This document shows, in pieces, positions 1 to 7,946 of a stretch of 64,000 nucleotides of DNA. Origin of the DNA: Dactylosporangium siamense. GTDB taxonomy: Bacteria > Actinomycetota > Actinomycetes > Mycobacteriales > Micromonosporaceae. The number at the start of each line of letters is the position of its first letter. Position 1 is the stretch's first letter. Under the pieces are notes generated by a model that worked only from the letters and a program-made list of their open reading frames with translations, was not told the origin of the DNA and did not search any database. The stretch is from NCBI RefSeq assembly GCF_016862795.1, contig NZ_BONQ01000129.1, positions 1 through 64,000 of the forward strand, in the 5' to 3' direction. The translations under genes and the position numbers were made by a program.

Positions 1-523
1 GAGCACGTAGACCGTGACCACGTCTCCGGGGGGACCACCCCCGCATGCGCGGGGAGCACTACTCGCAGGGCGGCACCGGCGGCAACAGCGTGGGACCACC
101 CCCGTATGCGCGGGGAGCACACGTCCTATTCAGTTAGGCCCAATCCCAGCTAAGGACCACACCCCCCCGCATGCGCGGGGAGCACGGCACCCGCTGCACT
201 GCCCGCACGGCTGACCTGGGACCACCCCCGCATGCGCGGGGAGCACCGGCTACTGGCGGCCAACGACGCTGCTGTCGCGGGACCACCCCCGCATGCGCGG
301 GGAGCACGCGCGCTCGCACGTGAGACACCCGTCTACCCGGGGATCACCCCCGCATGCGCGGGGAGCACTACTCGTCCAGGGTCGTCGGGTACATCAGGGC
401 GGGACCACCCCCGCATGCGCGGGGAGCACGCCTACATGCCGCGGGCGTCGCTGGCCGGGACGGGACCACCCCCGCATGCGCGGGGAGCACATCCTGTGGT
501 ACTTCAACGCGACGGACTTCTAT
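1..523 (-). CRISPR. Left CRISPR array, type I-E-like, read on the minus strand
   Basis: Eight full repeats lie at 31-59, 92-120, 153-185, 218-246, 279-307, 340-368, 401-429 and 462-490, with a 61-bp period and 32-nt spacers. A possible ninth repeat end (GAGCAC) is at 1-6, which would leave only a 24-nt spacer. On the minus strand each repeat begins GTGCTCCCCGCGCATGCGGG and ends GGTGGTCCC, the stem-loop form of actinobacterial I-E repeats. The repeat at 153-185 carries a 4-nt insertion, and the ones at 92 and 340 have single substitutions. By the usual I-E polarity the leader would lie to the right, near 524, but no leader is there. The array continues beyond the left edge. Confidence 0.95.
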
Positions 524-553
524 GGACCACCCCCGCGCACGCGGGGATGGTCC
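524..553. repeat. Hybrid, near-palindromic CRISPR repeat joining two opposed arrays
   Basis: This unit starts like a left-array repeat (GGACCACCCCCGC) and ends like a right-array repeat (CACGCGGGGATGGTCC). The switch lies inside the CCCCGC stem that both repeats share. The result is an inverted repeat with 14-bp arms, 524-537 and 540-553, with one mismatch. The spacer to its left (491-522) has the normal 32 nt and the one to its right (554-586) has 33 nt. It sits exactly where the leader of both arrays should be. Confidence 0.9.
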
Positions 554-963
554 ACCATCCACAACGACCTGAAAGCGCTCCGGGCCGTGCTCCCCGCGCA
601 CGCGGGGATGGTCCCCCGACAGCGACCGTCCCGGTGATCCGCCACACGTGCTCCCCGCGCACGCGCGGATGGTCCCAACCAGCTGACCCACGCGATCGCC
701 AAGACCAAGTGCTCCCCGCGCACGCGGGGATGGTCCGGCGGGCACGCCGACCAGTGGCGGGCACGTCCAGCGCTCCCCGCGCACGCGGGGATGTCCCGTC
801 CCTGGAGGTGGGGGAGCTCCCCGCGTACGCGGGATGGTCCGATCTCTTCCGGCCCCAGGTGGCGGCGGGTGCCGTGCTGCCCGCGCACGCGGGGATGGTC
901 CCGCGTGGCAGTTCATGGTGGGTGCGACGTCGCCGTGCTCCCCACGCGCGCGGGGATGGTCTC
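554..963 (+). CRISPR. Right CRISPR array, type I-E-like, read on the plus strand
   Basis: Seven repeats at 587-615, 648-676, 709-737, 770-797, 814-840, 874-902 and 935-963 start GTGCTCCCCGCGCACGCGGG and end GATGGTCCC. They differ from the left-array repeat at repeat positions 15 and 22. Spacers are 32-33 nt except 798-813, which has only 16 nt. The last four repeats are increasingly degenerate, which marks the right side as the trailer end and agrees with plus-strand reading. After 963 there is about 110 bp without repeats or an evident gene. Confidence 0.93.
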
Positions 964-2863: not shown

Positions 2864-3667
2864 TCAGGTGCGCTGGCGGTATACCTGGGCGTTCTTGTCG
2901 TTTCGGCCGGCCTCGAGCAGCCGCTCGGCTCGTTCCCGCAATGTCGTGGTGTCGGTGTTCCGGCGATGCCGGGCGGCCCAGATGTCGGCCTCGAGCGCGA
3001 TCGCCGCGCGTTCCCATTCGCGTTCCGGGCCGTAGAGTTCACAGTCCATCGTGTCGCAGCTGGCCCGGCAGGCCTTGCGGTTCAACGCCTGCCGTGCCAG
3101 GCCGCTGAAACCGATGATGGCGCACCAGGGCGACTCTCCAAGGTCGATCACCGTCGGGCTCGGCTCGCCGGCCTCGGGCAGACCGAGCGCCGGCAGCAGT
3201 TCGAGCGGCAGCTGGTAGCCCCAGAACGAAGATTCGTAGGCTGCGATGGCCCGTACCTGTTCCGGGACGGCCGTCAGCCCGACGGCACGGGCCCACTGTT
3301 CGAGATCGGCGGCGACGGCCTCCGTCGTTCGTGACACCGGCTGTGGGTTATGCCAGTACGGGCACGGCACCTGGTCGACGGGCAGATGGAACGATGTGGT
3401 CCAGCCCTCGCCCGTCCGCCCGTAGACGCCGAGGCAGTCGGCGGCGTTCACATACAAGGCCAACACGCCGACACCCGTGGCTGCGACGAACCGCTCGCTG
3501 GCGGCGGCGAAGTCCTGCGGGTCCGAAATGCCCCGGGTCTCCAGCAGTTGCCATCCGTCGCCGAGCTCGTACAGATGCTCGTGCTGATATCCGAAGCCGA
3601 GCACCGTCTCCTCATCGACGAGAAGCCGGTCGGATCGCGCCAGTACGAACGTCCCGAAGAAACTCAC
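2864..3667 (-). CDS. Uncharacterised protein
   Basis: About 267 residues from GTG 3667. The open frame reaches 3766, but that would run into the upstream gene. I do not recognise the family. The protein is soluble, with no signal peptide. It has a mixed alpha/beta N-terminal half (FFGTFVLARSDRLL) and a middle part with CPYWHNPQP. The C-terminal third contains RKACRASCDTMDCELYG, with four Cys within 20 residues, followed by a charged helical tail rich in Arg and Glu. The Cys cluster could bind metal, which is an inference only. It lies downstream of a NIPSNAP gene on the same strand with a 47-bp gap. Confidence 0.6.
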   Translation of the reverse strand: MSFFGTFVLARSDRLLVDEETVLGFGYQHEHLYELGDGWQLLETRGISDPQDFAAASERFVAATGVGVLALYVNAADCLGVYGRTGEGWTTSFHLPVDQVPCPYWHNPQPVSRTTEAVAADLEQWARAVGLTAVPEQVRAIAAYESSFWGYQLPLELLPALGLPEAGEPSPTVIDLGESPWCAIIGFSGLARQALNRKACRASCDTMDCELYGPEREWERAAIALEADIWAARHRRNTDTTTLRERAERLLEAGRNDKNAQVYRQRT

Positions 3668-4023: not shown

Positions 4024-4090
4024 GGTGCCAGCATACGTACGCGCTGAGGTCGCCGACGGTGGTCCGGCCGGGCCGTGGCACCATCGGCAG

Positions 4091-4390: not shown

Positions 4391-4975
4391 TCAGTGCAGG
4401 GTGGAGCGGTGGGTAGGGCTGAGGCGGAAGTGCTCGGTCTTCACCACCTGCTCGGGCACTTCCGTCCGCAGGGGTGACCGGGTGAGCCACACGAGCGCGT
4501 GCTCCCCCTCGCGGATCGGTAGCCCGGGGAAGGTGTTCTCGGCGTACTCGGTGCGCAGGACGGCCAGGGTGTCGTCCGCGTGTTCGGTGGGATCGGGGAA
4601 CGGGCCGGTCCAGTACCAGATCGTCGCGTGCAGGACGGCTTCTGGGTCGGCGGTGCCGCGGTCGAACACCGGGACCGCGACGAGTTCGCGGAGCAGCAGG
4701 ACATCGTCCGAGTCGAGCATCGTCGCGTTCGCCGCCGGTCCGTGCTGCTTCCATGCCGGGCCGGAGTAGAAGGCCGTCAGGCCGGCGTGCCGCGACGGCA
4801 TGTCGGTGAATCCGCGCAGCCATACGAACTGGTCGGGCCGGTCGAGGTCGCGGAACTGGCCCAGCACGGCCATCCCCAGTTCCTCCTGGGTCTCGACGAA
4901 CTCACGGTCGAACAGGTCGATCAGCTCGTCGCGGCGTCCCTGGCGCAGGGTGTACCGGCGCAGTTCGACGATCAT
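4391..4975 (-). CDS. NIPSNAP-family protein, two-repeat form
   Basis: 194 residues from ATG 4975, beginning MIVELRRYTLRQGRRDELID. The first half is a typical NIPSNAP domain (FVWLRGFTDMPSRHAGLTAF, FYSGPAWKQHG). The second half (YWTGPFPDPTEHADD, FPGLPIREGEHALVWLTR) looks like a diverged second copy. The start overlaps the stop of the Rrf2 gene as ATGA, so the two are co-transcribed and probably translationally coupled. The pairing suggests that the NIPSNAP gene answers to the signal sensed by the Rrf2 regulator. Confidence 0.85.
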   Translation of the reverse strand: MIVELRRYTLRQGRRDELIDLFDREFVETQEELGMAVLGQFRDLDRPDQFVWLRGFTDMPSRHAGLTAFYSGPAWKQHGPAANATMLDSDDVLLLRELVAVPVFDRGTADPEAVLHATIWYWTGPFPDPTEHADDTLAVLRTEYAENTFPGLPIREGEHALVWLTRSPLRTEVPEQVVKTEHFRLSPTHRSTLH

Positions 4976-5397
4976 GTCAGGATCCTTTCCAGAACGTCGT
5001 TGACGGTCGTGCGCGCCAGGGTCGCCCGGAACGCGCCGGTCGCCTCGTCGTACACATCGGTCAGCACCGGACGGATGCCGCGCCCGACCGGGCATTCCAG
5101 GTTGGGCTCGGAGTGATGCAGGGCGAGCAGCGGCTCGGGCGAGACGGCGAGCCACACGTCCAGCAGCGTGATCTCTGCGGCCGGCCGCCCGAGCGCGAAG
5201 CCGGCGCCGTTGCCGCGGCGCGCCGTCACCAGGCCGGCCCGCTGCAGGTCGCCGAGGCTGCGCCGGACGATGACCGGGTTGGTGTTGACGCTGGCCGCCA
5301 CCTCCTCGGAGGTGAGCACCGCTCGTCCGCGCCGCCTGGCCAGTTCCAGCCATGCCAGGGCATGGGCCGCGATCGTCACCCTGCTGTTGGCCGCCAC
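4972..5397 (-). CDS. Rrf2-family transcriptional regulator
   Basis: 141 residues from GTG 5397, giving the usual N-terminus MAANSRVTIAAHALAWLELA; the frame extends to 5433 but that adds atypical residues. The winged helix includes VLTSEEVAASVNTNPVIVRR and LGDLQRAGLVTARRGNG. The C-terminal half has a single Cys (NLECPVGRGI) rather than the three Cys of FeS-binding IscR/NsrR, so it may sense redox through one thiol or another signal. It is the first gene of a two-gene unit with the NIPSNAP gene. Confidence 0.85.
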   Translation of the reverse strand: MAANSRVTIAAHALAWLELARRRGRAVLTSEEVAASVNTNPVIVRRSLGDLQRAGLVTARRGNGAGFALGRPAAEITLLDVWLAVSPEPLLALHHSEPNLECPVGRGIRPVLTDVYDEATGAFRATLARTTVNDVLERILT

Positions 5398-7062: not shown

Positions 7063-7169
7063 TCGAGTCGTCGCCGCCACGGCGGGGCTCGCCCGATAAC
7101 CGCGGGATCGGATCGCCGCCGGCGGGTAGTGTGCGCCTTCGGATCCGTTGTGTGTTTGGGGGTCGGGTG

Positions 7170-7946
7170 GTGTCGGTCATCGACGACGACGCAGCACTCA
7201 ATCGGGAGGTGTGGACGCGGCAGAACGCCGCCTTCACCGACGCGCAGGCGTTCCGCGCCTGGGCCAGTGCTGAGATCACCTGGGGGCTGTTCGACATCCC
7301 CGAAAGCCGGCTCGGGGCTCTTGGCGATGTCACCGGTCTGGATGTGGTCGAGTTGGGCTGCGGCACCGCATACTTCTCCGCCTGGCTGGCCCGGGCCGGC
7401 GCCCGCCCGGTCGGTGTCGATGTGACCCCGGCTCAGTTGGACACGGCTCGGCGTTGCCAGGAGCAGTTCGGTGTCTCATTCCCGTTGATCGAGGCGGACG
7501 CCCAGGACGTGCCGCTGCCCGCAGCGAGCTTCGACCTGGCGGTGTCGGAGTACGGCGCCAGCCTCTGGTGCGACCCGGACCGCTGGATCGCCGAGGCGGC
7601 GCGGCTGCTTCGGCCGGGCGGCCGCCTGGTGTTCCTGACCAACAGCATCCTCGTGACGCTGTGCCTGCCGGAAGAGGAAGGCTACGCGGGGCAGTCGCTG
7701 CTGCGCCCCCAGCGCGGAATGCACCGGGTGCAATGGTCGAACGGCGGGGTCGAGTTCCATCCCGCCCATGGCGAATGGATTCGTATCCTGGCCGCTCATG
7801 GGTTGGTTGTGGAGGCCCTCCATGAGTTGTACGCCCCGGACGACGCCCAGACGCACGAGTACTACGACGTGGCAACGGCCGACTGGGCCAGGCAGTGGCC
7901 GGTGGAGGATCTGTGGACCGCCCGCAAACTCGGACATCGGCCTTAA
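7170..7946 (+). CDS. Class I SAM-dependent methyltransferase
   Basis: About 258 residues from GTG 7170, preceded by GGGGG about 8 bp upstream; earlier in-frame starts back to 7053 give a non-family extension. Motif I is VVELGCGTAYFSAWLARAG, motif II has VGVDVTPAQLD, motif III IEADAQDVPLP, and RLLRPGGRLVFLTNS follows. This is the standard Methyltransf_11/25 layout for small-molecule methylation. The C-terminal part (PAHGEWIRILAAHGLVVEAL) is that of free-standing methyltransferases. Acceptor unknown. A second methyltransferase follows 87 bp downstream on the same strand, but the two differ in sequence. Confidence 0.85.
   Translation: MSVIDDDAALNREVWTRQNAAFTDAQAFRAWASAEITWGLFDIPESRLGALGDVTGLDVVELGCGTAYFSAWLARAGARPVGVDVTPAQLDTARRCQEQFGVSFPLIEADAQDVPLPAASFDLAVSEYGASLWCDPDRWIAEAARLLRPGGRLVFLTNSILVTLCLPEEEGYAGQSLLRPQRGMHRVQWSNGGVEFHPAHGEWIRILAAHGLVVEALHELYAPDDAQTHEYYDVATADWARQWPVEDLWTARKLGHRP

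Follow-up and report, generated by a model that had tools for sequence, protein, structure and literature searches.

How did two CRISPR arrays of different repeat lineages come to be fused head to head, through one shared repeat and with no leader between them, in Dactylosporangium siamense? The arrays lie at the start of the window analyzed here, a stretch of 64,000 nucleotides whose base 1 is also base 1 of contig NZ_BONQ01000129.1 (C129). In our view the junction is probably, with a rough probability of 0.75, the deletion scar of a CRISPR-Cas locus with divergent arrays.

Two arrays joined through one hybrid repeat

The left arm (positions 1 to 523, minus strand) is composed of eight type I-E-like repeats with their spacers, starting at 32, 93, 158, 219, 280, 341, 402, and 463; beyond these eight, the contig opens with 6 nt of a further left-arm repeat. 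Its consensus, GTGCTCCCCGCGCATGCGGGGGTGGTCC, is found exactly in five of the eight repeats. The right arm (554 to 963, plus strand) consists of seven type I-E-like repeats with spacers, starting at 587, 648, 709, 770, about 814, 874, and 935, and its consensus GTGCTCCCCGCGCACGCGGGGATGGTCC is exact in two of the seven. The consensus sequences differ at position 15 (T in the left arm, C in the right arm) and at position 22 (G and A, respectively). Both arms show the features of type I-E arrays, namely repeats of 28-29 nt with the stem CCCCGC-NNNN-GCGGGG, a period of approximately 61 nt, and spacers of 32-33 nt, with a few shifted units, e.g., from 93 to 158 and from 770 to about 814.

Between the arms, at 524 to 553, lies a hybrid 3'-3' repeat of sequence GGACCACCCCCGCGCACGCGGGGATGGTCC, to which no strand can be assigned and which is the proposed deletion junction. 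We refer to it as P. It is built of two 3' halves standing back to back and in register: the first 13 nt equal the left-arm repeat, the last 23 nt equal the right-arm repeat, and the two matches overlap in the 6 nt CCCCGC. The start-to-start spacing of 61 nt is kept on both sides of the hybrid. Arms of two lineages, both pointing outward, meet at a direct microhomology, as would be expected of a deletion scar. The repeats of the right arm decay with distance from the junction. Repeat positions, arm consensus sequences, and the overlap of the two matches are in good agreement with the preliminary description of this locus, which had proposed left repeats on the minus and right repeats on the plus strand running outward from 524-553, two lineages distinguished at positions 15 and 22, a switch point inside CCCCGC, and degeneration at the far end of the right array. 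The first gene past the right arm, encoding a YdjC-like protein (Pfam PF04794; 1027 to 1968, plus strand), belongs to the flank and lies outside the junction. Rfam gave no match within the window.

A palindromic repeat can also arise without any deletion, if a polymerase switches strands at the hairpin and copies the 3' half of a repeat over its 5' half. P does occur within one-way arrays, at position 4976 of a locus from a Dehalococcoidia MAG (L082) and at position 4490 of a locus from Streptomyces massasporeus (L074), where no change of direction is seen; this suggests a hairpin-templated change of a single repeat at these two sites. Such copying does not reverse an array, whereas in the window everything to the left of P runs in the opposite direction and belongs to another lineage, and we consider this route highly improbable here. 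Mirror-image spacers, as expected from a fold-back within one array, were limited to short chance matches in the arrays of the window.

The left array is broken by the contig end. A second contig of the same genome, C205, has a first base that starts a repeat, and carries 16 repeats of the left-arm type, five of them exact, which decay outward and are most degenerate at C205:918-945. The left arm probably continues into C205, a join that we infer. Directly past the trailer of this left array, at C205:1120-1782, lies a remnant of an ISL3-type transposase (DDE_Tnp_ISL3). Far from the arrays, a solitary partial repeat of the left-arm type (approximately 23 of 28 nt) was observed in the window's genome at C215:8519-8545.

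The assembly is split into 296 contigs, C129 and C205 are each broken within an array, and this lends some weight to an assembly or chimeric-read artefact that fused two arrays of one genome. However, the two arrays have only 6 bp in common at the join, and similar junctions are found in a congener represented by a single contig (G005), in a contig of 7.7 Mb (L041), and in a record titled chromosome (L111). An artefact is thus very unlikely.

Intact divergent loci in the genus

Three congeners (G002, G003, and G004) reveal a locus in which a minus-strand and a plus-strand array, both with their leaders directed inward, flank a cas operon; the gaps between the arrays measure approximately 15.8, 15.8, and 16.0 kb, respectively. 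The operon of G003 encodes Cas2, Cas1, a PF08798 protein, Cas5, CT1975, Cse2, Cse1, and Cas3. In all three congeners the repeat of the array on the cas1/cas2 side is identical at 28 of 28 positions to the majority repeat of the right arm. The array on the cas3 side carries G22 in all three and T15 in G003, as does the left arm. The left arm shows two differences (positions 3-4) to the cas3-side repeat of G003 and likewise two to the cas1/cas2-side repeat, such that whole-repeat identity does not place it; it may derive from the cas3-side lineage, an assignment favoured by positions 15 and 22 only. The flanking ORFs of C129 and C205 are not found beside the cas loci of the congeners, and no intact relative was identified at the same chromosomal place.

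Among 20 Cse1 regions retrieved, 13 have arrays on both sides, ten of which are divergent with cas genes between them while three are not. According to the parts of Qiu et al. 2016 (PMC4762764) drawn on here, most type I-E systems of actinomycetes possess two arrays that are transcribed in opposite directions and differ in their repeats. The divergent layout appears to be lineage-dependent, since array pairs across all I-E systems mostly share a single orientation, as stated in the portion of PMC12814883 consulted. Elsewhere in the genus, such arrays and Cse1 are both lacking in G001, and G006 shows a partial match to Cse1, near which arrays were not found. The four near relatives with ordinary arrays that were tested (G002, G003, G004, and G007) all encode Cse1, but are too few to serve as a control.

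We propose that the ancestor of the present locus resembled these congeners, with a type I-E locus of two divergent arrays, leaders inward, and the cas operon between them. Due to the palindromic stem, CCCCGC forms a 6-bp direct repeat between repeats of opposite orientation. A deletion between the CCCCGC stem in a repeat of one array and that in a repeat of the other would have taken both leaders together with the intervening DNA (approximately 16 kb in the congeners, cas operon included) and would have fused the arrays in register through a single hybrid repeat. As the CCCCGC copies are direct, slippage or microhomology end-joining would suffice, and a reciprocal product would not be expected. 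A single event is presumed, as is the repair pathway (slippage or microhomology end-joining); any selection favouring the loss would be presumed as well.

Search for leaders, cas genes, and a reciprocal hybrid

A leader between the arrays would have spoken against the preliminary description, which held that both leaders had been lost. Comparison with congener leaders revealed none. When the 44-nt ends of five congener leaders were compared without gaps, the best matches reached 22-26 of 44 positions within the window, on C205, in the part of C215 covered, and at the G005 locus, as against 29-32 of 44 at the true leader positions of other arrays. Judged against these congener leaders, no leader adjoins the first repeat of either arm, and the leader sites are occupied by a spacer and P.

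Neither Cas1 nor Cse1 found a match in the window's genome (98.84% complete, 296 contigs). An 11.8-kb query from G003, which starts at the first repeat, spans leader and cas operon, and reaches into the gene that follows, aligns along its full length with G002 (95%) and G004 (79%). In the window's genome the same query gave 21 short scattered matches among the 40 of 2,333 first-look candidates that were scored, the best of which (E value 4e-8) falls into the kinase-gene part.

The preliminary description considered recombination between inverted stems the simplest model and accordingly expected a reciprocal 5'-5' hybrid, here termed Q. In the window's genome Q was not found with a stem pattern, in the five stem contexts read outside the arrays, or with a Q pattern. 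As C129 and C205 both begin inside an array, something could be hidden in the gap between them. Inversion through palindromic stems, be it between two arrays or inside a single one, would place Q at another site and would need leaders and cas genes to have been lost separately. It is a real process in other bacteria: in Brevibacterium album DSM 18261 (L103:7121-7270), P at 7121 and Q at 7245 enclose one flipped repeat of a single array, and in Actinoplanes flavus (L093:3564-4081), P at 3564 and Q at 4055 bracket a flipped segment of one long I-E array. These inverted segments share the P hybrid with the window, but they also contain Q, and the array direction resumes behind them. In contrast, Q is lacking in the window's genome as well as in G005, only two of 39 P-bearing genomes searched contain it, the arms in the window are of different lineage, and the cas genes are gone. 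Inversion between stems is not the best fit here, and we regard it as unlikely for this locus. Of the earlier interpretation, the two lineages, the head-to-head polarity, the CCCCGC switch, and the absence of a leader are retained, while inverted-stem recombination leaving a reciprocal product gives way to a deletion, which also explains the missing cas operon. P alone is no proof of a deletion; it is the difference in lineage, the absent Q, and the absent cas genes that together make the case.

Without leader, Cas1, and Cse1, the leftover arrays are predicted from the sequence to add no further units and to have no activity through this system, and they look decayed. Taking both arms and C205 together, 12 of 31 repeats are exact, whereas the cas1/cas2-side arrays of the congeners reveal 53 of 57 (G003), 64 of 75 (G002), and 23 of 26 (G004) exact repeats in scans that differ slightly from that of the window's genome. 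The low exactness fits decay.

Recurrence of P junctions

An exact P pattern, GGNNYAYCCCCGCNNNNGCGGGGRTRNNCC, was used to scan genome_contigs and matched 91 stretches with 96 instances; junctions that formed at a different breakpoint or whose stem has mutated, such as that of G005, fall outside this pattern. Array contexts and a looser local scan for Q covered the loci L034-L113, and L114-L124 were added for the test of outward repeats. Before filtering, outward repeats at the expected distance were present on both sides of 43 instances, on one side of 30, and on neither side of 23, while the same test at shifted control offsets was positive in 13 of 1,152 cases. Nine instances in five loci (three in L044, two each in L053 and L069, and one each in L082 and L114) were dropped on the ground that the palindromic repeat is the ordinary repeat of the array or sits in a one-way array; L074, likewise one-way, was kept as one-sided. 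The 87 remaining P sites divide into 35 two-sided, 29 one-sided, and 23 without an outward repeat. They occur mostly in Streptomyces and other actinomycetes, with Halomonas as one exception. A sample drawn by phylum revealed P in two of 396 genomes (the window's own included) and Q in none of 396, which is too sparse for a ratio. In L044, L053, L069, and L114, two of which are from Gemmiger, the ordinary repeat itself is near-palindromic (GGATCACCCCCGC...GCGGGGATAAGCC or similar).

Of 46 genomes with P, the window's own and G005 counted, 34 lack Cse1, as do 20 of 26 genomes with a two-sided P if these two and the two inversion cases are set aside; the count covers the two-sided loci other than L050, L078, L116, L119, L120, and L124. 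It stands without a matched control of I-E arrays that lack P, and arrays devoid of cas genes may be common anyway. In the Cse1-positive genomes of L041, L064, L067, L088, and L092, the two-sided P lies on a different contig or 2.8 Mb away from Cse1. The two-sided P of Halomonas (L057) lies approximately 4 kb from Cse1 and counts against the reading as a deletion.

The sequence of 14 of 26 two-sided junctions compared with their arms is not fully explained by the neighbouring arm repeats, as expected with diverged arms but also open to other routes. Overlaps between the two arm matches are absent in three of the 26, 2 bp long in one, and 4-18 bp long in eight.

The two genomes with Q among the 39 are those of L093 and L103, found with a pattern that misses repeats not starting with NTNCTY. 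Of the 26 two-sided genomes in the Cse1 count, 21 were included in the Q search (those other than L036, L041, L056, L057, and L062). The looser local scan gave eight Q-like matches in seven P loci; six were rejected as ordinary or degenerate repeats or as chance matches, and two were accepted, L093 at 4055 and L103 at 7245.

The strongest single parallel is provided by the congener G005, in which 42 minus-strand repeats, a hybrid at about L166:11909, and five plus-strand repeats of another lineage follow one another on its one contig. Neither Cse1 nor a Q hybrid was found in G005. DNA matches between this locus and C129 or C205 are limited to the arrays, and the arm repeats differ. Thus, as far as the sequences tell, the G005 junction looks like an independent event.

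A query with the arrays against phages matched 17 records, 16 of which are Streptomyces phages. Among the 15 of 17 matches listed, none concerns a spacer alone; the matches fall into an 83-bp stretch that bears repeats. In Streptomyces phage Piccadilly (OL455886.1; L223:1440-1640) we observed a stretch with I-E-like repeats. Given the preponderance of Streptomyces phages, this stretch is likely a phage-borne mini-array.

Comparison with known systems

The divergent I-E loci of Streptomyces avermitilis and other actinomycetes, as presented in the cited parts of Qiu et al. 2016 (PMC4762764), likewise have two opposite arrays with different repeats. They share the stem CC(T)CCGCNNNNGCGGG(A)G with the arrays of the window and carry the cas operon between the arrays. 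In the window, by contrast, leaders and cas genes are missing and a single hybrid repeat connects the arrays, a fusion not described in those parts. Deletions of a whole cas block, as proposed here, are known from Staphylococcus epidermidis escapers (PMC3784566) and from Lactobacillus acidophilus NCFM (as related in PMC6990116). In contrast to these losses, to the extent that the cited portions portray them, the proposed breakpoints in the window are the stems of two opposed repeats, and a palindromic hybrid would stay behind as a marker. The collapse of a Legionella I-F array, in the account taken from PMC7056967, is a repeat-mediated deletion too, but one between direct repeats of one array, whereas two divergent arrays joined through half-repeats are concerned here. 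The open-access literature in PMC, as far as it was sampled, yielded no paper on a hybrid 3'-3' repeat, which may be in print elsewhere.

Implications for CRISPR-Cas loss

As a rule, the loss of CRISPR-Cas is deduced from what is missing, so that the genome retains no record of the way or the frequency in which such losses occurred; a hybrid 3'-3' repeat would mark the breakpoint itself. We tentatively suggest, as a possibility we hold well short of conviction, that a divergent layout is inherently excisable owing to its palindromic I-E repeats, since each stem would offer a direct microhomology to every repeat of the opposing array and the whole system with its leaders could be removed between two repeats, and that the 35 two-sided P sites may be mostly fossils of such losses. 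If this is true, the hybrid repeat would be a countable fossil: past losses could be tallied from genomes alone and, in actinomycetes, set against self-targeting, phage load, or the gain of plasmids. A locus with two divergent arrays would then also be a structure that renders the immune system easy to discard.
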